A stretch of 64,000 nt of DNA from NCBI RefSeq assembly GCF_019711355.1, contig NZ_CP081297.1:930001-994000 (forward strand), written 5' to 3'. Position numbers and translations under genes: made by a program. Below, one piece after another: positions 17,157 to 27,653 of the stretch. This DNA is from Qipengyuania psychrotolerans. Lineage in GTDB: Bacteria; Pseudomonadota; Alphaproteobacteria; Sphingomonadales; Sphingomonadaceae. Within the stretch, counting starts at the first letter, position 1; each line of letters opens with the position of its first letter. The notes beneath the pieces were generated by a model. The model made no database searches and was not told the DNA's origin. It saw nothing but the letters and a program-made list of their open reading frames with translations.

Positions 17157-17191
17157 TTGCGAATCTCTCCGGAATGGAACATAATGGGAAC
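17157..17191 (+). promoter_or_regulatory. SOS promoter with LexA box for imuA-imuB
   Basis: GAAC (17177-17180), 7 nt, GAAC (17188-17191) is the complement of the alphaproteobacterial LexA site GTTC-N7-GTTC, a direct repeat. It overlaps a well-formed promoter, -35 TTGCGA (17157-17162), 17-nt spacer and -10 CATAAT (17180-17185). LexA binding would therefore block RNA polymerase directly. The imuA start is 17 nt downstream of the box. Confidence 0.85.
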
Positions 17192-17208
17192 AAGCGAGTC
17201 GTTCCTGC

Positions 17209-17991
17209 ATGTCCAAACCCGATCTATCCTCCTTGCCGCTCACGGCCTTTGAAGACGTTGCCACGCTGTCTGCGCGGCGCACTGCGCGCTGGCGACCAGG
17301 GTTGGCAGCGGTGCAGGGCGCGGCGTCTCACAGCGAAGTCTTTGCATCATCGCGCGAAGGGGCGGGGGTGGGGGCCGCACTGGCCCTGGCGCTCGACGAC
17401 TGGCGGCACATTCCGCGTGAAGATGACCGCGAGGTAGAGGACCGGCGCAGCGTGTTGTGGGTGCAGACGCGCGATGCTGCGCGCCTGAACGGGCGCCCCT
17501 ATCGCGCCGGCCTTCCCGATGAATTGCAAGGACGCCTGATTCACGTGCTGGCGGACAAGGCGGGAGACGCGCTCTTCGCATTGGAAGAAGGGCTGCGCTG
17601 CCGCGACTTCGCTTTCGTGATCGGCGAAATGACCGGCAATGCCAAGGCGCTGGATTTCACGGCTTCGCGGCGGCTGACTTTGGCGAGCGAGAGGCACGGC
17701 GTGCAGCTGTTCCTTATCCGGATCGATGCCGCACATGATCTGTCTTCGGCCCGGATGCGCTGGGAAGTGACCAGTGCGCCGTCTCCTGCATCCCAGTGGA
17801 ATGCGCAAGCGCCAGGCGACCCGGCGTGGCGCGCCGAACTTTTCCGCGCCCGCAGTCATGCTCCGGGAGAATGGCTGCTGAAAAGCACGCCAAAAACCCT
17901 TGAGGCAACCAGGGCGAGCGAGCGCACAGACCGGGCGGTGGCCAATTGGACGGCCGGGCTAAGACATCGGCGCCCGCCGCTCAGGGCATGA
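17209..17991 (+). CDS. imuA: ImuA, SOS mutagenesis accessory protein (RecA/SulA-like)
   Basis: Component of the ImuA-ImuB-DnaE2 mutasome that carries out damage-induced translesion synthesis in bacteria lacking Pol V. The 260-residue product has the weak RecA-like core of ImuA: SHSEVFASSREGAGVGAALALAL near the front, VLWVQTRDAARLNGRPY, FVIGEMTGNAKALDFTASRRL and LFLIRI. As in other ImuA proteins, I do not see an intact Walker A motif. It lies just behind a LexA-controlled promoter, and its TGA overlaps the imuB ATG (ATGA). The ribosome site is weak, so the ATG at 17209 rests mainly on fit to the family. Confidence 0.9.
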   Translation: MSKPDLSSLPLTAFEDVATLSARRTARWRPGLAAVQGAASHSEVFASSREGAGVGAALALALDDWRHIPREDDREVEDRRSVLWVQTRDAARLNGRPYRAGLPDELQGRLIHVLADKAGDALFALEEGLRCRDFAFVIGEMTGNAKALDFTASRRLTLASERHGVQLFLIRIDAAHDLSSARMRWEVTSAPSPASQWNAQAPGDPAWRAELFRARSHAPGEWLLKSTPKTLEATRASERTDRAVANWTAGLRHRRPPLRA

Positions 17992-19562
17992 ACGCGCCGA
18001 TGACAGGTGCGGCCTGCTCGCGGCGCATCCTCTCGATCTGGCTTCCTGCGATGGCAATGGATCGCTGGCGGCAGGACGGGGGCGAGCAGCGGCATGCGCT
18101 CGATACGCAGCCTCTCGTCCTGATTGCCGATACTGCGCATGGTCCGCGCATCGAGACGGTGAACCGCGCCGGTATGGCAGCGGGCGCGCGCCGCGGCATG
18201 ATGCTGGCAGATGCACGAACCTTGTGCCCTGATATCATTACTGCGCCGAGCGATCCGGCAGGCGATCTCGCTTTCCTCGAAAAGCTCGCAATCTGGGCGC
18301 AGCGCTGGGGTCCGTGGTCGGCGATGGATGCCCCTGACGGATTGCTGGTCGACGTAACCGCTGTGCCGCATCTCTTTGGGGGCGAGCAAAAGCTGCTGCG
18401 CGATGTGGCAACCGCCTTTGCCGCGCGCGAGCTGGCCTTGCGCTGCGCCATTGCACCGACGGCGGGTGCCGCATGGGCGCTATCCCATTATGGCCCGCCT
18501 GGCGCGATATTGCAGGGTGAGGAAGACTTCGAGGCGAAGCTCGCCGATTTGCCCGTGGCCGCTCTTCGGCTGGACGAGGATGTACTTACGGTACTGCGCC
18601 GCCTTGGATTGAAGCGGATGGGCGAACTCACGACGATTGGCCGCGATGCGATCCAGCGCCGCTTCCGCAATCGCAAATCGCCAGCTGCCAACCCGCTGAT
18701 CCGGCTTGACCAGATACTTGGCCGCGTGCCCGAACCGCTGCTGCCGGTGGTGCCGCAGCATATGCCGCTGGTCCAGCGCCGGTTGATGGAGCCGATCCGT
18801 CATCGCCAACTGCTCGACCAGGTCGTTGGCGATCTTGCCGAAGACATGGTGCGCGAGTTGGAAGGGCGGGGCGAGGGCGCTCGCAGGCTCGAACTTGGCC
18901 TATGGCGTGTCGATGGCGAGGTTGTCGTGCGCCGTCTCGAAATGGCCGCTGCCACCCGCGATCCGGCGCACATCTGCCGCCTGTTCGCTGCACGGCTCGA
19001 TGACATCGACGCAGGCTTCGGTATCGAGATGCTGCGCCTGCGCACGAGCTGGGCCGAACCGCTGGCACTGGAGCAGGGGGATATCGAGGCTGCAGCAGAG
19101 GTGCATGGCACATCCCTGTCCGCCTGTATCGACCGGTTGACCGTGCGGCTAGGGGTGCATGCGATTACGCGTCCCGTGCCCTTCGCCAGCCATATCCCGG
19201 AACGCGCCCAGCGGTGGCAGCGGCCGCTGGAGCCGGAATCGGCTTCTCAAGCCGAATTGGCTTTTCACAAGAGGCCTCTGAAACTCCTCGACAATCCGGA
19301 AAGGATCGCGGTCCTTTACGCTACGCCGGATGGTTACCCGCAACGCTTTCGCTGGCGGGGTGAAGTGCACGAGGTGGCGCGAGTAGAGGGGCCGGAAAGG
19401 ATCGCGCCGGAATGGTGGCGCGAGCGCGGTGCAACGCGCCTGCGCGATTATTACCGGATCGAGGATGATCGTGGTCGGCGATACTGGATATATCGCCTCG
19501 GTATCGTGGGAGACGGACGCGGCGGTGCGCCCGACTGGTATCTTCAGGGACTGTGCGCTTAG
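17988..19562 (+). CDS. imuB: ImuB, catalytically inactive Y-family polymerase homologue of the SOS mutasome
   Basis: Hub protein that links ImuA, DnaE2 and the sliding clamp. It has a Y-family polymerase fold but lacks the catalytic acidic residues: the N-terminal strand reads ILSIWLPAMAMDRW where polymerases have the D-x-D/E metal site, and the second motif is LLVDVTAVPHLFGGE. A C-terminal DUF6504-like domain follows (FRWRGEVHEV, PERIAPEWWRE, YYRIEDDRGRRYWIYRLG). A QAELAF stretch near the C-terminal third could be a clamp-contact motif, which is weakly supported. I prefer the ATG at 17988, overlapping the imuA stop by ATGA, over one 42 nt earlier inside imuA. Length from that start is 524 residues. 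Confidence 0.92.
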   Translation: MNAPMTGAACSRRILSIWLPAMAMDRWRQDGGEQRHALDTQPLVLIADTAHGPRIETVNRAGMAAGARRGMMLADARTLCPDIITAPSDPAGDLAFLEKLAIWAQRWGPWSAMDAPDGLLVDVTAVPHLFGGEQKLLRDVATAFAARELALRCAIAPTAGAAWALSHYGPPGAILQGEEDFEAKLADLPVAALRLDEDVLTVLRRLGLKRMGELTTIGRDAIQRRFRNRKSPAANPLIRLDQILGRVPEPLLPVVPQHMPLVQRRLMEPIRHRQLLDQVVGDLAEDMVRELEGRGEGARRLELGLWRVDGEVVVRRLEMAAATRDPAHICRLFAARLDDIDAGFGIEMLRLRTSWAEPLALEQGDIEAAAEVHGTSLSACIDRLTVRLGVHAITRPVPFASHIPERAQRWQRPLEPESASQAELAFHKRPLKLLDNPERIAVLYATPDGYPQRFRWRGEVHEVARVEGPERIAPEWWRERGATRLRDYYRIEDDRGRRYWIYRLGIVGDGRGGAPDWYLQGLCA

Positions 19563-19879
19563 ACGGGTTCCGCCTCTTCGGCAGGCTCGACAGATTCCAC
19601 ATCCTCGGGCTCCAAAACCTCTTCGGGACCGTGCTTGAGTTCGGACAATTCCGGGATGAGCGCGCTGGTTCTGCACACTTCCGACCCCGCCACAATCGTG
19701 GCCGCAATCCGCGACTGTTCCATCGCTTCGGGGGTATTGTTGAATGTCGGCACGATCACTTGCGGCGCGATACATTTGCGCGGTGCCTGCTCACTCGATT
19801 CAACCGGTGCATCATCGTCCTGCGCCAGCGCCGGAGCGGCCAGCAGGGTCAGGCTGGAAACGAAAAGTACAGCGCGCAT
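19559..19879 (-). CDS. Small secreted protein with acidic C-terminal tail
   Basis: A 106-residue product with a Sec signal peptide (residues 1-19, ending APALAQ), a short core holding two cysteines (KCIAPQ and EVCRTS) that could form a disulfide, and an acidic Glu/Pro/Val tail. It ends 4 bp into the convergent imuB gene. I recognise no family. A periplasmic structural or binding role is possible but unsupported. Confidence 0.6.
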   Translation of the reverse strand: MRAVLFVSSLTLLAAPALAQDDDAPVESSEQAPRKCIAPQVIVPTFNNTPEAMEQSRIAATIVAGSEVCRTSALIPELSELKHGPEEVLEPEDVESVEPAEEAEPV

Positions 19880-19934
19880 CGAAATCTCCTATGCCAAGCA
19901 TTTGAGAGATAACCGCTTACTGTGCGGTGAACCG

Positions 19935-20366
19935 TCAGCCTTCCGAAAGAAGCGAAGCTCTGCGCGAGCGTTTCTGCCCCAGAGGTATCTTGCCGAAATT
20001 GGCCACCGGACCAGTCTGGACTTCAACCGTTTCGACAGTGTCCTCGACAACAGCAAGCGGGATCGGTCGCTCGAATACAATGCCGCAGCTCTTGTCATTG
20101 GCCCATACGATCTTGCCGAAGTGTTCGTGACCGTTCCAGAACAGCAGGCCGGAGACGCCTTCACTCGGAGGGTTGCTGGTTTCCAGTCGCGCACCGTCTT
20201 CGGAAAGATCGGACAGGCGTCCTTCGCGGTCGCCGCCAAGCATCTTGAGCGTTGCAGCGCAATCGACTGCAAAGCGCGGTGCGGCGCGTCGCTCCTTTTG
20301 AGCCACAGCTTGGTTCCTGCGGAATAGCCCCACGTCCACTCTCCTGTTGGTCAGATCACCTGCCAT
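19935..20366 (-). CDS. PilZ-domain protein, probable cyclic-di-GMP receptor
   Basis: A 143-residue cytoplasmic protein with a single PilZ domain. The bipartite ligand motif is seen: ERRAAPRFAVD (the RxxxR element) near residue 25 and LSEDGARLET (the D/NxSxxG-like element) about 30 residues later. It is followed by beta-strand-rich sequence with GKIVWANDKSCGIVFERP. Both elements look competent for c-di-GMP. The start is uncertain: the ATG used here gives MAGDLTNRR, while a TTG start 30 nt upstream is also open. It is monocistronic by position. Confidence 0.82.
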   Translation of the reverse strand: MAGDLTNRRVDVGLFRRNQAVAQKERRAAPRFAVDCAATLKMLGGDREGRLSDLSEDGARLETSNPPSEGVSGLLFWNGHEHFGKIVWANDKSCGIVFERPIPLAVVEDTVETVEVQTGPVANFGKIPLGQKRSRRASLLSEG

Positions 20367-20413
20367 CAGAAGGGTAAATTTGGTCCTTCGGCACAAGCTT
20401 ACCGCCGCATTAG

Positions 20414-20450
20414 GAAACGGGCCGGAAGCGCGAAGCTTCCAGCCCGTTTC
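20414..20450 (-). terminator. Terminator hairpin after the carbonic anhydrase gene
   Basis: Outer arms gaaacggg (20414-20421) and cccgtttc (20443-20450) pair perfectly, and an inner ggaagc/gcttcc stem stacks on them. It lies 18 nt beyond the carbonic anhydrase stop codon on the minus strand. The U-run is short (TTTC). Confidence 0.7.
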
Positions 20451-20467
20451 AAGGACTTCACCAAATT

Positions 20468-21190
20468 TTACTCGGGTGCGACAAGAAGCCGCGTGCCGAG
20501 CGGCTGGATCGAACGAGCCGACGAGCCGAGGTTCGCTTCCATCGCAGCGATTTGCTCTGCGCTGGCGCTCATGACTTCATCGGCAACGTGCCAATTGACA
20601 CCTTCGCTGCAGGGCGGCGTGGTAAGCGAGCCCATGTAGCGGTAAACGCCGGCATCTTCGGGAACCATGTCATTCACGTCGAACTGCACAGTGGCACCCT
20701 TGCCAGCGCCGACACCGGCAACGATGGAATCAAGCGCAGGGTTGGCGTCGCCCTGTTCGAACATGACGCCAAGGACGCCGAGTTCACCGGCTTCGGTTGC
20801 GTGCACGAAATGGGCGACGAGCGGGTGGCGCTTACCGTTGATGGCGTGTTCGGAAGGGGTGTGGAAGTGAACCTGGATCAGATTGAATTCCTTGCCGCCT
20901 GAATTCATTCCCATTCCGGCGGGAAAGTCCACTTGGACCTTCTCCTTGCCGAGCGCGATCGTGCCGCTGGTCTCGCCAAAATTTGTTTCGAATGCGATAT
21001 CGCCGCGTGCGTTGGCCGCGCCAAGATCGATTGGCGACTGGTGCAGTCCGACATCGCACAGTGCATATGCCGCATTTACGGTCGACCAGCGCTCGGGCGA
21101 GGTTCCGTCGCTGAAGCTCCAGTCCTTTTCCTGGGCGACAACAGGGCCAGCAGCCATGGCAGCGAGTGCGAGGGTAGCGATCTTCTTCAT
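20468..21190 (-). CDS. Periplasmic alpha-class carbonic anhydrase
   Basis: Zinc enzyme interconverting CO2 and bicarbonate. The mature protein follows a Sec signal peptide (residues 1-20, MKKIATLAL ... VVAQ). Zinc ligands of the alpha class are visible in VHFHTPSEH (two histidines of H-x-H) and AHFVHA (third histidine), with the adjacent QSPIDL and the TTPPCSEGVNW loop, both characteristic of the family. The 240-residue length is normal. The start at 21190 is the ATG of the signal peptide; an upstream in-frame extension is not credible. It has its own terminator and sits between the two SOS units on the opposite strand. Confidence 0.95.
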   Translation of the reverse strand: MKKIATLALAAMAAGPVVAQEKDWSFSDGTSPERWSTVNAAYALCDVGLHQSPIDLGAANARGDIAFETNFGETSGTIALGKEKVQVDFPAGMGMNSGGKEFNLIQVHFHTPSEHAINGKRHPLVAHFVHATEAGELGVLGVMFEQGDANPALDSIVAGVGAGKGATVQFDVNDMVPEDAGVYRYMGSLTTPPCSEGVNWHVADEVMSASAEQIAAMEANLGSSARSIQPLGTRLLVAPE

Positions 21191-21396
21191 AACATACTCC
21201 AACTGGCGACCCGACGGTCGCGGGATGTTCGTATGCCAGCGGTATATGAGTGTTGGGGCCGCCAGCGTCACTTACGTCCGACATCACGAGCGCATTTACG
21301 CTCGCCAGAGGGGCCCGGTCCGTGGCTCCCTTACGTTCGATCGCGGTATAGGTTCCCGACCAATTATATCTTTTGACATTGGTGAATCCCAACAAA

Positions 21397-21411
21397 GAAC
21401 ATATAGCGAAC
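21397..21411 (+). promoter_or_regulatory. LexA box directly in front of the radical-SAM/UdgX/dnaE2 unit
   Basis: GAAC (21397-21400), 7 nt (ATATAGC), GAAC (21408-21411) matches the same GTTC-N7-GTTC complement seen before imuA. It ends 2 nt before the radical-SAM ATG. A TTGACA lies at 21373-21378, but the matching -10 is not clear. If transcription starts just after the box, the message would be leaderless or nearly so, which fits the absence of a good ribosome site. Confidence 0.8.
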
Positions 21412-21413
21412 AC

Positions 21414-22658
21414 ATGACTGCGCAAACTGTCCTTCAAAAGCTCGAAATTCTCGCCGATGCGGCGAAATACGATGCATCATGTGCATCGTCCGGGACGGCA
21501 AAGAAGAACAGTCTTGGCGGGAAGGGCATCGGCTCGACCGAGGGGATGGGTATCTGCCATGCCTATGCGCCGGATGGTCGGTGTATCTCGCTGCTCAAGA
21601 TCTTGCTGACCAATCACTGCGTGTTCGATTGTCATTACTGCGTAAACCGCAAGAGCTCGAATGTGCAGCGCGCGCGGTTCACGCCGCAAGAAGTGGTCGA
21701 CCTCACGCTCGCCTTCTATCGGCGCAATTATATCGAAGGGCTGTTTCTGTCCTCCGGCATCGTGAAAAGCTCGAACCACACGATGGAACAGATCGTCGAG
21801 GTTGCGCGCATCCTGCGCGAAGAACACGATTTTCGCGGCTACATCCACCTCAAGACCATCCCCGAAGCCGATGCGGAGATCGTCCATCAGGCGGGGCTTT
21901 ATGCCGACCGTGTGTCGATCAATGTCGAACTGCCGACCGACAGCGGATTGACCCGCCTCGCGCCCGACAAGGATGCGCGCCAGATCGAAGGTGCCATGGG
22001 CAAGGTGAAGGCTGACCTTGTCGAAGCGAAAGATGCGCGAAAGCGCTTCCGGCACGCCCCGCGCTTTGCGCCAGCGGGCCAATCGACACAGATGATCGTC
22101 GGGGCGGACGCCGCGACCGATGCGGACATCGTCGGCAAGGCCAGCCGGTTATACGATAATTTTCGTCTGCGCCGTGTCTATTACAGTGCCTTTTCACCGA
22201 TCCCCGATGCCAGTGCGGTGCTGCCGCTGAAACGCCCTCCGCTGATCCGCGAACACCGGCTCTACCAGTCCGATTGGTTGATGCGCTTCTATGGCTACAA
22301 GCCGAGCGAAGTCATGCAGGCGACCGATGCTGATGGAAACCTGCCGCTCGACATCGACCCCAAGCTGGCATGGGCGCTGAAGTTTCGGGAGCAATTCCCG
22401 GTCGATGTGAACCGGGCCACCAAGGAACAATTGCTGCGTGTTCCCGGCCTTGGAGTGAAGGCGGTGAGCAAGATCCTCGTCAGCCGCCGCCATCGCACGC
22501 TTCGGCTGGATGATGTGGCAAAGCTCACCCAGTCGATCACCAAGGTGCGGCCCTTCATCTGCACGCTTGACTGGCGACCGGTCATGCTGACGGATCGCGC
22601 TGACCTGCGCAGCCTGCTCGCGCCAAAGACCGAGCAGCTGGAGTTATTCGTCGCATGA
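21414..22658 (+). CDS. Putative DNA modification/repair radical SAM protein (TIGR03916 type)
   Basis: A 414-residue radical-SAM enzyme. The 4Fe-4S-binding CX3CX2C motif lies at Cys69, Cys73 and Cys76 (NHCVFDCHYC). A TIM-barrel follows with LFLSSGIVKSSNHTMEQ and HLKTIPEAD. Near the C-terminus a helix-hairpin-helix segment (VNRATKEQLLRVPGLGVKAVSKIL, residues about 325-350) implies DNA binding. The last residues are QLELF-VA, closely resembling the QL(S/D)LF clamp-binding pentapeptide. Its stop overlaps the start of the UdgX fusion gene (ATGA), and a LexA box abuts its ATG. The reaction is unknown; family context suggests acting on a damaged or modified base. Confidence 0.88.
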   Translation: MTAQTVLQKLEILADAAKYDASCASSGTAKKNSLGGKGIGSTEGMGICHAYAPDGRCISLLKILLTNHCVFDCHYCVNRKSSNVQRARFTPQEVVDLTLAFYRRNYIEGLFLSSGIVKSSNHTMEQIVEVARILREEHDFRGYIHLKTIPEADAEIVHQAGLYADRVSINVELPTDSGLTRLAPDKDARQIEGAMGKVKADLVEAKDARKRFRHAPRFAPAGQSTQMIVGADAATDADIVGKASRLYDNFRLRRVYYSAFSPIPDASAVLPLKRPPLIREHRLYQSDWLMRFYGYKPSEVMQATDADGNLPLDIDPKLAWALKFREQFPVDVNRATKEQLLRVPGLGVKAVSKILVSRRHRTLRLDDVAKLTQSITKVRPFICTLDWRPVMLTDRADLRSLLAPKTEQLELFVA

Positions 22659-24109
22659 CAGCTCTCCAGCACGTCAAGCTCGGCGCCTATTACGTGGTGC
22701 AGATGCCCGAGCCGGACGATTTCGATTTCTGGCGTGAACGGGCGCGTCAGCTGGTCCAGTGCGATGTCCCGCCCGACCGTGTGGCCTGGGTTGAACCCGG
22801 CGGCAGCGGCGATTTGTTTGCATCCGGCGAAAAATTGGGCGGAGAGCGGCGATCGCCTGTGCCCGATGCGGATGCGAAGGCAGTGCGGGCCAATCGCCGG
22901 TTCGTCAGCCTGGCGCGCAATGCCATCCTCCATTCCGATCCGGAGCGTTTCGGGCTGCTCTACCGGCTGCTGTGGCGATTGCAGGCAAACCCGCGGATGA
23001 TGGAAGACAAGGCCGATCCAGACGTCCGCAAGATCGAGGAACTCGACAAGAACGTCCGCCGCGACAGCCATAAGATGCACGCTTTCGTCCGCTTCCGCCT
23101 TGTCGAATCCGAAGACGAGGAAGTGGGCGAACACTACGTTGCCTGGTTTGAACCCGAACATCACATCCTGCGTGCCAATGCCGGTTTCTTCATGCGCCGC
23201 TTCGCCAATATGCAGTGGTCGATCCTGACGCCGCGCGGATGCCTCCACTGGGACGGCGAGACAATGGCAGAAGGCCCTCCTGCCGAGCGCAGCGATGCCC
23301 CGGGCGGCGATCCGATGGAGGATATGTGGCGCACTTATTACGCCTCCATCTTCAATCCCGCACGGCTGAAAATTGGTGCCATGCTGAAGGAAATGCCGAA
23401 GAAATACTGGAAGAACATGCCCGAAGCCGCGCTCATTCCCGAACTGATCGCAGGCGCGCAGGGGCGCGAGGCGAGAATGGTCGCGGCCGGCGCGCTGGAA
23501 TTCGAGGAGCGGCCCGAAACGCTGGCCGCTATCGACAAGGCCATCCATGCGTGCCGCAAATGTCCGATTGGCGGCCTCGACAATAATGCTGTCATGGGCG
23601 AGGGGCCGCAAGATGCCGCTCTGATGATCGTGGGTGAGCAGCCGGGAGATCAGGAGGATCAGCAGGGGCGTCCATTCGTGGGACCTGCTGGCCAATTGCT
23701 TGAGGTGCATCTCGAAAAGGCCGGGATCGACCGGCGCGCGGCCTATGTCACCAATACGGTGAAGCATTTCAAATATGTGATGCGCGGCAAAAGGCGCCTG
23801 CATCAGAACCCGGGCGCGAAGGAAATCGACACCTGTCGCTGGTGGATCGAGGCGGAGCGCGCCATCGTAAAACCGAAGCTGATCCTTGCCATGGGTGCCA
23901 GTGCGGCGCGCGGTATGCTGGGCAAGACGGTGAGCATGTCCAAAGTGCGAGGCGCGCCGATCCCGCTGGAAGATGGCAGCGAGTTATGGGTCACCGCGCA
24001 CCCATCCTACCTGCTGCGCCTCGACGGTCCTGCGCGTGAAGAGCAGGCGCGGCTGCTCGATGCCGACCTCGCCGCAGTCAGGCACCGGCTGATGGAACTG
24101 GCCGGGTGA
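22655..24109 (+). CDS. Fusion of a DUF4130 (TIGR03915) domain to a UdgX-type uracil-DNA glycosylase/crosslinking protein
   Basis: The N-terminal half (about residues 1-265) matches the DUF4130 family that accompanies this radical-SAM protein (VRANRRFVSLARNAILHSD, MHAFVRFRLVE, FMRRFANMQWSILTP). The C-terminal half is a family-4-like uracil-DNA glycosylase of UdgX type. It shows CRKC (Cys300, Cys303) and Cys394 as cluster ligands, GEQPG at 327-331, the distinctive KRRLH loop with His383, and HPSYLLR. In mycobacterial UdgX the loop histidine forms a covalent bond with DNA after removing uracil. At 370-371 the sequence is KH where family-4 enzymes have KC, so His371 may be the fourth cluster ligand. 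It overlaps the radical-SAM stop and is 4 nt from dnaE2. Confidence 0.9.
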   Translation: MTALQHVKLGAYYVVQMPEPDDFDFWRERARQLVQCDVPPDRVAWVEPGGSGDLFASGEKLGGERRSPVPDADAKAVRANRRFVSLARNAILHSDPERFGLLYRLLWRLQANPRMMEDKADPDVRKIEELDKNVRRDSHKMHAFVRFRLVESEDEEVGEHYVAWFEPEHHILRANAGFFMRRFANMQWSILTPRGCLHWDGETMAEGPPAERSDAPGGDPMEDMWRTYYASIFNPARLKIGAMLKEMPKKYWKNMPEAALIPELIAGAQGREARMVAAGALEFEERPETLAAIDKAIHACRKCPIGGLDNNAVMGEGPQDAALMIVGEQPGDQEDQQGRPFVGPAGQLLEVHLEKAGIDRRAAYVTNTVKHFKYVMRGKRRLHQNPGAKEIDTCRWWIEAERAIVKPKLILAMGASAARGMLGKTVSMSKVRGAPIPLEDGSELWVTAHPSYLLRLDGPAREEQARLLDADLAAVRHRLMELAG

Positions 24110-24113
24110 CACC

Positions 24114-27100
24114 ATGCCCGAAAACGATCTCCAGGTACCCAAGCGCACAATCGATCTCGATCCGGCGTCGATAGACGCGCCCTCCCGCGCGCCCTTCGTC
24201 GAGCTGGGCCTTGTCTCATGTTTCAGTTTCCTGCGCGGCGCATCCGATGCGGTGGACATCGTGCTCAAGGCGCGGGCGCTTGGCTATGATGCCATCGGGA
24301 TAGCCGATGCCAACACCATGGCAGGCGTGGTGCGGGTGCATACCGAAGCACGAACACTCAAGCTGAAGCCCTGCATCGGCTGCCGGATCGAGACAGTCGA
24401 GGGGCTGGCCTTCCTCGCCTATCCGGAAAACCGCACAGCCTATGGCCGTCTGTGCCGCCTGATCTCGGCCGGACGGATGCGCGATCTGGATGGCGGATGG
24501 CAGGAGAAAGGCGCGTGCGACATCAGCCTCGCCATGCTCGCGCGCCACGCCGAGGGCGTGCAACTCATCCTGCTCCCGCCGAATGATCTGGCGCGCGAAT
24601 TCACCGTACCTGCATGGGCCAGCAATGTGGTGGGACTGGGCGGCGAAAAGGTGCAGGAGCATATCGCCGCGCCCTTTGCGGACGTCCTGCCGCACCTTTC
24701 TGCAGGCCTGGACTCTTTGCGCCATATTGCTGCGGCCTATCTCTACACCGATAACGATATTGCACGGATAGAGCGGCTGGATGCGCTGGCCAAAGCGAAC
24801 GGCCTGTCCATTCTTGCGACCAATGATGTGCACTACGCAGGGCCCGAACGGCGCCCGCTGCAGGATGTGATGACCGCAATCCGCCACAAGACTACCGTGG
24901 CGCGGGCAGGGCACCTTCTGCATGGTAATGCGGAGCGTTATCTCAAGCCGCCTGCAACCATGGTGCGCCTGTTCGAACGCTGGCCCCATGCAATCCACGC
25001 TGCGCGCGAAGTTGCCGACGCCTGCAATTTCAGCCTCGACGAACTGCAATACGAATATCCCGAAGAGCTTTATCCCGGCGGGGCGGAGCCGCAGGAGTAT
25101 CTCGAAAGCGAGACCTGGAGAGGCGCCGACTGGCGCTACCCCTCCGGCGTGCCGGAGAGTGTCACGGAGACATTGCACAAGGAATTGGCGCTGATCGGCA
25201 AGATGGATCTGGCGCGGTATTTCCTGACCATCAAGGACATCGTCGATTTTGCGCGCAACAAGGTCGATCCGCCGATCCTGTGCCAGGGCCGGGGAAGCGC
25301 GGCGAATTCCGCCGTGTGCTACTGCCTTGGCATCACCAATGTCGATCCGGCCCAGCACCAGTTGCTGTTCGACCGCTTCATCTCCGAAGACCGCAAGGAA
25401 CCGCCCGATATCGATGTCGATTTCGAGCATGAGCGGCGCGAGGAAGTGATCCAGTACCTCTATCGCAAATACGGCCGCCACCGCGCCGGACTATGCGCCA
25501 CGGTCATTCATTACCGCCCGCGCATGGCCATCCGCGAAGTTGGCAAGGCCATGGGTCTGTCAGAGGATGTCACCGCTGCCCTCGCCAAGACGGTGTGGGG
25601 CGGATGGGGCCGAGAAATCAGTGAAAAACACGCGTCCGAAACGGGCATGGATGTCAGTGATCCGCACCTGAAGCGGGTTCTTAAACTGACCGAACAAATG
25701 ATTGGAATGCCGCGCCATCTATCACAACACGTGGGCGGGTTCATCCTCACCGAAGGCGCGCTCAGCGAGACCGTGCCAATTGGCAATGGCGCCATGCCTG
25801 ATCGCAGTTTCATTGAATGGGACAAGGACGATATCGAGGCGCTGGGCATCCTCAAGGTCGATGTGCTGGCGCTGGGCATGCTCACCTGCATCAGGAAATG
25901 CCTCGACCTGCTGGACGATCATCACGGGCGCACCCTGACGTTGGCGAGTGTCCCGCGCGAGGATCCGGAAACTTATGCCATGCTGCGCAGCGGCGATTCC
26001 CTTGGCGTGTTTCAGGTCGAAAGCCGTGCGCAGATGAACATGCTCCCCCGCCTGCGCCCGCGCGAGTTTTACGACCTCGTCATCCAGGTGGCCATCGTGC
26101 GTCCCGGCCCCATCCAGGGCGATATGGTCCACCCCTATCTCAAGCGCCGCCGGGGGGCAGAGCAGGTGGTCATTCCCGCACCATCGCCCGAACATGGCGC
26201 ACCCGACGAGCTTTCCAGCATTCTCGAACGCACGCTGGGCGTGCCGATCTTCCAGGAACAGGCGATGAAGATCGCGCTCGACGCAGCCAGGTTTTCGTCA
26301 AAAGAGGCCAATCGGCTGCGCAAGGCCATGGCGACCTTCCGCAGCCGTGGCATGGTCGACGAACTGCAGGACATGATGGTCGAACGGATGGTCAATCGCG
26401 GTTACGACCGCGATTTTGCGCAGCGCTGCTTCAACCAGATCCGCGGCTTCGGCGAATACGGTTTCCCCGAAAGCCATGCCGCCAGCTTCGCGCATCTCGT
26501 TTATGTATCGAGCTGGCTCAAATGCCATTTCCCCGCCGCCTTCGCCTGCGCGCTGCTTAATTCACAGCCGATGGGTTTCTATGCGCCCGCCCAGATCGTG
26601 CGCGATGCAGCAGAGCACGGGGTCGAGGTGCTGCCGGCTGATGTGAACCTGTCTGCATGGGATTGCACGCTTGAAGAAAAGGGCAAGGCGCGAGCGCAGG
26701 GACCCGACAACGGCAGGTTGGACAAGCACGTCGCGCTGCGTCTGGGGTTCAGGCAGGTCGATGGCCTGCCCGAAGCGGTTGCAGCACAGCTTATCGCCGA
26801 GCGGGAGACAGGCGGCGCATATGAGGATGTCCGCGCCCTGCGCGATCGCGCGCGCATCGGTCCAGCCCATGCAGAACGCCTGGCCAGCGCCGATTGCTTC
26901 GGGTCGATGGGCCTTACACGCAGGCAGGCCTTATGGGACGCACGCAGCCTGGTTGGTGGACCGGATTTGCCATTGTTCGCCGCTGCTGCCGCGCGCGATG
27001 AAGGTGCGGAGAGAAGCCGCACAAACCTGCCGCAGATGCCGCTCAGCGAGGAAGTGGTGGCAGATTACCAGACCACTCGCCTCAGCCTGAAAGCGCACCC

Positions 27101-27653
27101 GATGGCATTCCTGCGCGCCAGCCTTGCGGAGCGCGGATTTGTGCGCGCCTGCGACCTGCGTGCCAAGAAGTTCCGCAGCATGGTCCATGTCGCAGGCGTG
27201 GTGCTGATCCGTCAGCGCCCGGGCAGCGCCAAGGGCGTATGCTTCATCACGCTGGAAGATGAGACCGGCGTCATCAATCTTGTCGTCTGGCCGGACCTTA
27301 AGGAAAAGCAGCGCCGCGTAGTCATGGGGTCGCGCCTGATGGAGGTGCGCGGCCGCGTCGAATATGACGACGAGGTCATCCATGTCATCGCGCACCATAT
27401 GACGGATGCGACGGGTGAATTGCACAAGCTTTCCGACGACATACTCAATGCACCGCTGGCGCGCGCGGATCACGTCAGCAACCCGCTGCCCGACAAGTTC
27501 AATCCGAGAGACAATCTGCGTGACGGTACCGACGACCCCTATCAACCGGTCGAGCCGTGGCAGGAACCGCCACCGGGCAATCGCGAATGCGGCTGGCAAG
27601 GCGGTCATCCGCGCGATGTCCGTATCATTCCGAAATCGCGCGACTTTCACTGA
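24114..27653 (+). CDS. dnaE2: Error-prone DNA polymerase DnaE2 (ImuC)
   Basis: C-family polymerase that performs damage-induced translesion synthesis with ImuA and ImuB. Order: N-terminal PHP domain (LVSCFSFLRGASDAVDIV), palm with catalytic aspartates in PDIDVDF (431-437) and KVDVLALG (Asp583), fingers, tandem HhH region and a C-terminal OB fold (VHVAGVVLIRQRPGSAKGVCFITLEDETG). It ends with a basic tail. At 1179 residues it is somewhat longer than most DnaE2 proteins (about 1050-1100). It starts 4 nt after the UdgX fusion, so here it belongs to the radical-SAM/UdgX transcription unit rather than to imuAB. SOS control would come from the LexA box 2.7 kb upstream. Confidence 0.95.
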   Translation: MPENDLQVPKRTIDLDPASIDAPSRAPFVELGLVSCFSFLRGASDAVDIVLKARALGYDAIGIADANTMAGVVRVHTEARTLKLKPCIGCRIETVEGLAFLAYPENRTAYGRLCRLISAGRMRDLDGGWQEKGACDISLAMLARHAEGVQLILLPPNDLAREFTVPAWASNVVGLGGEKVQEHIAAPFADVLPHLSAGLDSLRHIAAAYLYTDNDIARIERLDALAKANGLSILATNDVHYAGPERRPLQDVMTAIRHKTTVARAGHLLHGNAERYLKPPATMVRLFERWPHAIHAAREVADACNFSLDELQYEYPEELYPGGAEPQEYLESETWRGADWRYPSGVPESVTETLHKELALIGKMDLARYFLTIKDIVDFARNKVDPPILCQGRGSAANSAVCYCLGITNVDPAQHQLLFDRFISEDRKEPPDIDVDFEHERREEVIQYLYRKYGRHRAGLCATVIHYRPRMAIREVGKAMGLSEDVTAALAKTVWGGWGREISEKHASETGMDVSDPHLKRVLKLTEQMIGMPRHLSQHVGGFILTEGALSETVPIGNGAMPDRSFIEWDKDDIEALGILKVDVLALGMLTCIRKCLDLLDDHHGRTLTLASVPREDPETYAMLRSGDSLGVFQVESRAQMNMLPRLRPREFYDLVIQVAIVRPGPIQGDMVHPYLKRRRGAEQVVIPAPSPEHGAPDELSSILERTLGVPIFQEQAMKIALDAARFSSKEANRLRKAMATFRSRGMVDELQDMMVERMVNRGYDRDFAQRCFNQIRGFGEYGFPESHAASFAHLVYVSSWLKCHFPAAFACALLNSQPMGFYAPAQIVRDAAEHGVEVLPADVNLSAWDCTLEEKGKARAQGPDNGRLDKHVALRLGFRQVDGLPEAVAAQLIAERETGGAYEDVRALRDRARIGPAHAERLASADCFGSMGLTRRQALWDARSLVGGPDLPLFAAAAARDEGAERSRTNLPQMPLSEEVVADYQTTRLSLKAHPMAFLRASLAERGFVRACDLRAKKFRSMVHVAGVVLIRQRPGSAKGVCFITLEDETGVINLVVWPDLKEKQRRVVMGSRLMEVRGRVEYDDEVIHVIAHHMTDATGELHKLSDDILNAPLARADHVSNPLPDKFNPRDNLRDGTDDPYQPVEPWQEPPPGNRECGWQGGHPRDVRIIPKSRDFH

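Follow-up and report, generated by a model that had tools for sequence, protein, structure and literature searches.

In Qipengyuania psychrotolerans (Sphingomonadaceae, Alphaproteobacteria), the gene for the error-prone DNA polymerase DnaE2 directly follows the genes for a radical S-adenosylmethionine protein (rSAM) and for a fusion of DUF4130 with a uracil-DNA glycosylase (UDG) of the UdgX type, which raises the question of whether the three genes form one LexA-controlled unit and how this unit relates to the ImuA-ImuB-DnaE2 mutagenesis cassette. The window analysed is a stretch of 64,000 nucleotides (contig NZ_CP081297.1, positions 930,001 to 994,000). With a probability of roughly 0.72, we read the locus as an SOS operon of rSAM and the fusion gene (udgX) that lies between imuB and dnaE2, is equipped with a LexA box and promoter of its own, and seemingly supplies the promoter of dnaE2. 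The elements concerned are the following:

21397..21411, plus strand: LexA-type box GAACATATAGCGAAC, GAAC-N7-GAAC, its 3' end 2 nt short of the rSAM ATG, at a conserved position
21414..22658, plus strand: rSAM, of the TIGR03916 / COG4277 type, by profile match
22655..24109, plus strand: DUF4130-UdgX fusion, with a TIGR03915 domain at residues 20-258 and a UdgX domain at residues 260-475
24114..27653, plus strand: dnaE2, error-prone DNA polymerase III alpha, by NF004225 match

An earlier note, made from the letters of this DNA, had described three genes tightly packed behind a GAAC-N7-GAAC repeat, and both coordinates and profile scores bear this out. The rSAM and udgX genes overlap by 4 bp (ATGA), and a 4-nt gap separates udgX from dnaE2. 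The rSAM protein reaches 575.1 bits against TIGR03916 (curated cut-off 343.5), which we take to be the same family as COG4277; the fusion protein scores 231.3 bits against TIGR03915 (cut-off 112.25), 138.9 against PF13566 (27) and 312.4 against the UdgX family TIGR03914 (189.95), and DnaE2 scores 1367.9 against NF004225 (939).

By pattern alone, the box would not be significant, because its counts match those of shuffled sequence and of a reversed control: bare GAAC-N7-GAAC occurs three times in the window versus 1.82 expected, with 29 of 100 shuffles reaching three, and 77 times in the genome versus 90 for the reversed pattern. Significance of the bare motif was consequently rejected, and what argues, at the level of sequence, for the box being real is its conserved place. 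In 98 of 100 loci of the same family, the 100 nt preceding the aligned rSAM start contain a perfect box of the alphaproteobacterial type in either orientation, compared with 20 of 4816 random control segments from these loci, and its start falls exactly at -17 from the rSAM start codon in 80 of the 100. The same test in other alphaproteobacterial families returned 41 of 41 rSAM loci versus 3 of 2000 control segments. In the rest of Pseudomonadota, CTGTN8ACAG, which we take to be the LexA motif of Gammaproteobacteria, precedes rSAM in 11 of 19 loci (controls, 2/919). The genome itself encodes LexA, matched at 1210834-1211532 on the minus strand (168.7 bits, cut-off 110.95) with a box 34 nt upstream, and RecA, matched at 1437433-1438392 on the minus strand with a box 123 nt upstream, so that a LexA-type box over the promoter goes together with a LexA in the genome, as expected for a member of the LexA regulon.

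The box coincides with a putative promoter, whose elements in the window are:

21379..21384, plus strand: putative -35, TTGGTG, the family consensus being near TTGAC at the same place (column counts, 95 sequences)
21402..21407, plus strand: putative -10, TATAGC, within the LexA box, consensus TATAAN

The 95 sequences, comprising the window and 94 of 160 loci (a second locus set, described below, being excluded), were picked for a perfect box starting at -17 and aligned on it. They give column frequencies of T 0.88, T 0.43 and G 0.85 for the -35 and of T 0.99, A 0.99, T 0.75 and A 0.76 for the -10, with a spacer of 17 nt between the two elements. The rSAM ATG falls where transcription should begin, which suggests that the mRNA is leaderless and starts at or beside this ATG. 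With the box over the -10 and the ATG at the expected start, LexA should cover both the -10 and the start codon.

Upstream on the same strand, the window holds the other part of the mutagenesis cassette:

17177..17191, plus strand: LexA-type box before imuA, a perfect GAAC-N7-GAAC
17209..17991, plus strand: imuA, a weak NF033429 match (23.6 bits, cut-off 150), assigned by position and by homology to genes at the same place
17946..19562, plus strand: imuB, with IMS and DUF6504 domains, its true start probably being the ATG at 18000

The box before imuA had been named in the earlier note and is present; its companion claim, that dnaE2 is parted from imuAB here, is contradicted by the window itself and by the family, where imuA, imuB, rSAM, UdgX and dnaE2 all lie on one strand in 28 of 100 loci. 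A gene homologous to imuA stands before imuB in all 28 family loci with dnaE2, and none of the 100 shows dnaE2 without imuAB; dnaE2 travelling without imuAB was accordingly rejected. As in the known ImuA-ImuB-DnaE2 SOS cassette, all three genes are found on one strand with a LexA-type box before imuA, within 17177-27653; the difference is that the cassette is split by other genes and by rSAM-udgX, which brings its own LexA-boxed promoter between imuB and dnaE2 and makes dnaE2 the third gene of an operon. With a separate LexA-boxed rSAM-udgX operon inside it, the cassette would run as two LexA-controlled messages, imuA-imuB and rSAM-udgX-dnaE2.

This arrangement recurs among relatives. In the family, 105 genomes score over the TIGR03916 cut-off, and the locus was analysed in 100 of them, each in a stretch of about 9 kb on either side of rSAM (shorter at contig ends). 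The remaining five are the window genome (G000), two in which rSAM and dnaE2 adjoin by coordinates (G030, G138) and two with dnaE2 on other contigs (G073, G182); G073, G138 and G182 were excluded for a short upstream contig, and G094, equally short, was kept. Outside the family, 60 of 70 rSAM matches in the phylum were analysed, the other 10 and the family matches G439, G451 and G534 being left out. A second set of 80 loci contains 24 with the co-directional order, 23 of them with imuB, and two more loci with imuB whose sequence stops 1.4 and 2.7 kb past the rSAM start; seven of the 80 duplicate a family locus, and pooled counts are therefore given as distinct where it matters. A UdgX/DUF4130 match was obtained in 233 of all 240 rSAM loci.

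Both sets together provide 52 co-directional loci; without repeats these are 49, of which 48 have imuB. The rSAM and udgX genes overlap by exactly 4 bp in 37 of the 52, and 49 of the 51 with an imuA match show a perfect box no more than 250 nt ahead of it. Between 100 nt before the udgX stop and 30 nt into dnaE2, no box was found in any of the 52. The distance from the imuB end to rSAM varies from 53 to 6293 nt in the 28 family loci and is 100 nt or less in six of them. In the window's genus, rSAM and dnaE2 adjoin in 29 of 37 genomes by manual comparison of coordinates. One genus member (G015), whose stretch gave neither an rSAM nor a UdgX match, shows imuA-imuB-[box]-dnaE2, and in two further genomes (G003, G022) imuA-imuB-dnaE2 lies elsewhere, with dnaE2 directly after imuB and a single box before imuA. 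A third perfect GAAC-N7-GAAC of the window, at 23039..23053 within udgX, is probably due to chance, as a perfect box anywhere from the rSAM stop to the udgX stop occurs in only 3 of the 49 distinct co-directional relatives.

Several observations weigh against a fixed three-gene unit. No dnaE2 match lies near rSAM in 72 of the 100 family loci, so that the association with dnaE2 is not needed for function; 69 loci have rSAM and UdgX but no imu genes in the stretch, and three gave no UdgX match. The remainder of the genus comprises three genomes with dnaE2 elsewhere, two without dnaE2 over the cut-off, one without rSAM and two cut by contig ends. Among co-directional loci, L153 lacks an imuB match, and the udgX-dnaE2 gap is long in L139 (622 nt) and L153 (293 nt). 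The window copy of the -35 is weak; a TTGACA begins 6 nt further upstream. Eight of the 19 loci outside Alphaproteobacteria lack a perfect CTGTN8ACAG in the stretch tested, two of these having it overlapping the aligned start and one having it with one mismatch. In one strain, Qipengyuania sp. YIM B01966 (L072 and L137), Asn replaces the crosslinking His of the UdgX R-loop (RRLN), like in ordinary family-4 glycosylases. The earlier note's single LexA-controlled unit is supported, by comparison, through the conserved box and promoter, the tight packing and the lack of a second box at dnaE2; in the family, rSAM-udgX mostly lies apart from dnaE2.

The earlier note's link between rSAM-udgX and the ImuAB-DnaE2 mutasome gained from a second arrangement. 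In another alphaproteobacterial family (f14), seven of eight loci have imuA-imuB-dnaE2 and rSAM-UdgX pointing away from each other, and the 300 nt before rSAM hold a single perfect box shared between both directions. On an rSAM tree (FastTree, 161 rows), these seven form one supported clade apart from the co-directional group, and the co-directional arrangement requires 12 changes and is clustered (0/500 shuffles as low), which supports, as far as gene order can tell, two separate linkages of the same modules. The tree counts (13 changes) are compatible with a single gain and many losses or with several gains, another point against a simple reading of the operon. We infer that events ran in the direction of the whole rSAM-udgX operon being placed into the imu cassette.

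Within the operon, profile matches identify rSAM-DUF4130 as the core unit and UdgX as an add-on, because among 398 Pseudomonadota genomes (84 with rSAM, 87 with DUF4130 and 78 with UdgX over the cut-offs) DUF4130 occurs in 84 of the 84 rSAM genomes and UdgX in 63. UdgX is under the cut-off in the other 21, and it was accordingly rejected as an obligate partner of rSAM; 15 genomes have UdgX without rSAM. Only three genomes, all of f14 (G412, G428, G495), have DUF4130 without rSAM over the cut-off. A separate, short DUF4130 gene (279-325 aa) is present in 10 loci from UdgX-free genomes, and in at least one other such locus, L262, the gene is 460 aa long; this longer fusion, and some of the 21 genomes, may hold a divergent UDG domain. 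Residues R136, H139, R146, R182, W225, Y228, R237, W252 and E257 (window numbering) are conserved across 26 of the 27 DUF4130 rows in the alignment, fused and separate, the row of L219 being a 15-residue fragment owing to the script's choice of start.

The proteins carry the motifs of their families. In rSAM, all 73 rows of the alignment keep the CX3CX2C motif (C69, C73, C76) unchanged, three further Cys (C23, C48, C57) are invariant, and the C-terminus gives a helix-hairpin-helix match of 21.3 bits, under the Pfam cut-off of 27; alignment A1 drew on 72 of the 79 rows selected for it, and alignment A2 on 82 of its 91. The UdgX domain has E328, Q329, N367, R381, H383, H449 and R455 and shows GEQPG, KRRLH and HPSYLLR, in line with the signature of motif A (GEQPG), the His-containing R-loop (KRRxH) and motif B (HPSxLLR) defined in the excerpted text of PMC10359453, which also calls the physiological role of UdgX largely unknown. 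The UdgX part is expected to bind covalently at uracil sites in DNA.

Taken as a mechanism, the preferred reading would start with LexA lying across the -10 and start codon of the rSAM promoter. Upon DNA damage, LexA cleavage would release a probably leaderless, co-transcribed rSAM-udgX-dnaE2 mRNA, and DnaE2 would be made together with the repair enzymes. The rSAM protein and DUF4130, as an inseparable pair, would act chemically on a damaged base or sugar, the fused UdgX, where present, would capture uracil or abasic sites covalently, and DnaE2 with ImuA and ImuB would copy across whatever remains. A more specific form of this proposal, in which rSAM-DUF4130 is an unrecognised two-component radical-SAM enzyme of SOS DNA repair that has an extra N-terminal iron-sulfur cluster (C23, C48, C57) and either trims a lesion or undoes it, UdgX serving as an optional shield of abasic sites and expression being hard-wired to DnaE2 by the leaderless LexA promoter, is offered tentatively, at clearly less than even odds.

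The main competitor, to which we give somewhat less than even odds, holds that two independent SOS modules adjoin only since, under shared LexA control, such neighbours cost little and move easily, and that there is no biochemical cooperation between rSAM-udgX and dnaE2. The 72 family loci with the two apart fit it, as do the two plasmid records examined, which carry rSAM-udgX as a two-gene unit, the 4 of 105 family genomes with rSAM that have no dnaE2 over the cut-off, and G015, whose dnaE2 stands behind a box without rSAM-udgX. Mere proximity accounts less readily for the joining of the same modules in two separate arrangements, for the co-occurrence of rSAM and dnaE2 in family genomes (101/4/39/15, Fisher p 2.5e-5, kinship ignored) and for the fact that dnaE2 lacks its own box in all 52 co-directional loci.

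The order of action in the earlier note, in which UdgX first marks or caps a uracil or abasic site, the capped lesion passes to rSAM for processing and DnaE2 fills in, is not supported and appears unlikely: it is weakened by rSAM-DUF4130 being the core pair, and runs against the 21 of 84 rSAM genomes in which UdgX is under the cut-off (some perhaps with a divergent UDG domain), the short stand-alone DUF4130 genes and the genomes that have UdgX without rSAM. It is more improbable still that rSAM makes a DNA base modification read or removed by UdgX, the SOS link then reflecting stress-specific marking; the family name, 'modification/repair', would allow this, and so would the helix-hairpin-helix-like module and a barrel nearest the HydE, LipA and BioB types among the fold matches listed, whereas SOS-type boxes across Alphaproteobacteria and, in part, other Pseudomonadota fit repair better.

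Parts of this system have been described before. LexA-type control of a two-gene UDG/COG4277 operon was reported in Bacteroidetes (PMC8565304), which cites earlier reports of SOS regulation of such a system in Verrucomicrobia and Alphaproteobacteria. As excerpted, this LexA-type control concerns what are apparently the same two gene families, in an operon of two genes not joined to dnaE2; the operon of the window, in contrast, takes in dnaE2 and has DUF4130 fused to UdgX. PMC3765255, which deals with the neighbourhoods of SOS genes, names the association of DUF4130, an SplB-like radical SAM protein and UDG, the same grouping as in the window; its excerpted text does not state an rSAM-udgX-dnaE2 operon or an obligate rSAM-DUF4130 pair. 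Relative to the UdgX of Mycobacterium smegmatis (PDB 6ajo, 6iod), the window protein differs by its N-terminal DUF4130 domain and its operon context. In Streptomyces venezuelae, a mitomycin C-induced, LexA-bound 'Radical SAM protein' appears in the excerpted text of PMC9380542, its match to the rSAM family here not being established. Going by these excerpts, SOS control of the UDG/COG4277 operon and the DUF4130-UDG-rSAM association are already known; no published description of an rSAM-udgX operon that includes dnaE2, or of the rSAM-DUF4130 core pair, was found in the openly licensed PMC literature.

If the more specific proposal is true, lesion processing and mutagenic bypass would be delivered as one dose in this lineage. 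The locus also illustrates how rewiring of the imu cassette can couple error-prone synthesis to particular repair enzymes. With 84 of the 398 Pseudomonadota genomes sampled, the rSAM-DUF4130 pair is widespread, and it is mostly SOS-boxed, with no tested function in the source excerpts found. Its placement in the mutasome cassette would offer a concrete genetic setting for a substrate search, with one promoter, one polymerase, and natural variants with and without each part.

Structure searches added little on DUF4130 and rSAM. A solved structure was sought for both and none was obtained by sequence search: the fusion (30 sequences) matched UDG chains and one phage DNA polymerase, all at profile positions 267-461, in the UDG part, and rSAM (21 sequences, up to E 1) gave weak helix-hairpin-helix and radical-SAM stretches and chance-like matches. 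In the fold searches, the UDG domain and the rSAM barrel took up the best 50 matches of each, so that DUF4130 was hardly probed. The spore photoproduct lyase (SplB) family is not among the NCBIfam matches or the 50 fold matches listed, which excludes nothing.

Some minor features of these loci are also worth recording. The genes between imuB and rSAM in the window include a PilZ gene and a carbonic anhydrase gene on the opposite strand. A same-strand open reading frame lies between rSAM and UdgX in nine loci (L071, L074, L105, L111, L119, L162, L171, L201 and L209); that of L105, as called, overlaps the rSAM end, and that of L071, the only one scanned, encodes a hemerythrin domain. On plasmids, 158 records have an rSAM match, and rSAM-udgX forms a two-gene unit on those of Leisingera (L277) and Shinella (L278). 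The window DnaE2 is nearer to plasmid-borne DnaE2 of Rhodobacterales (58-61%) than to that of a Sphingomonas plasmid (50%), the nearest (61%) lying directly after imuB on a Roseobacter plasmid, and these similarities hint at a horizontal origin of the cassette.

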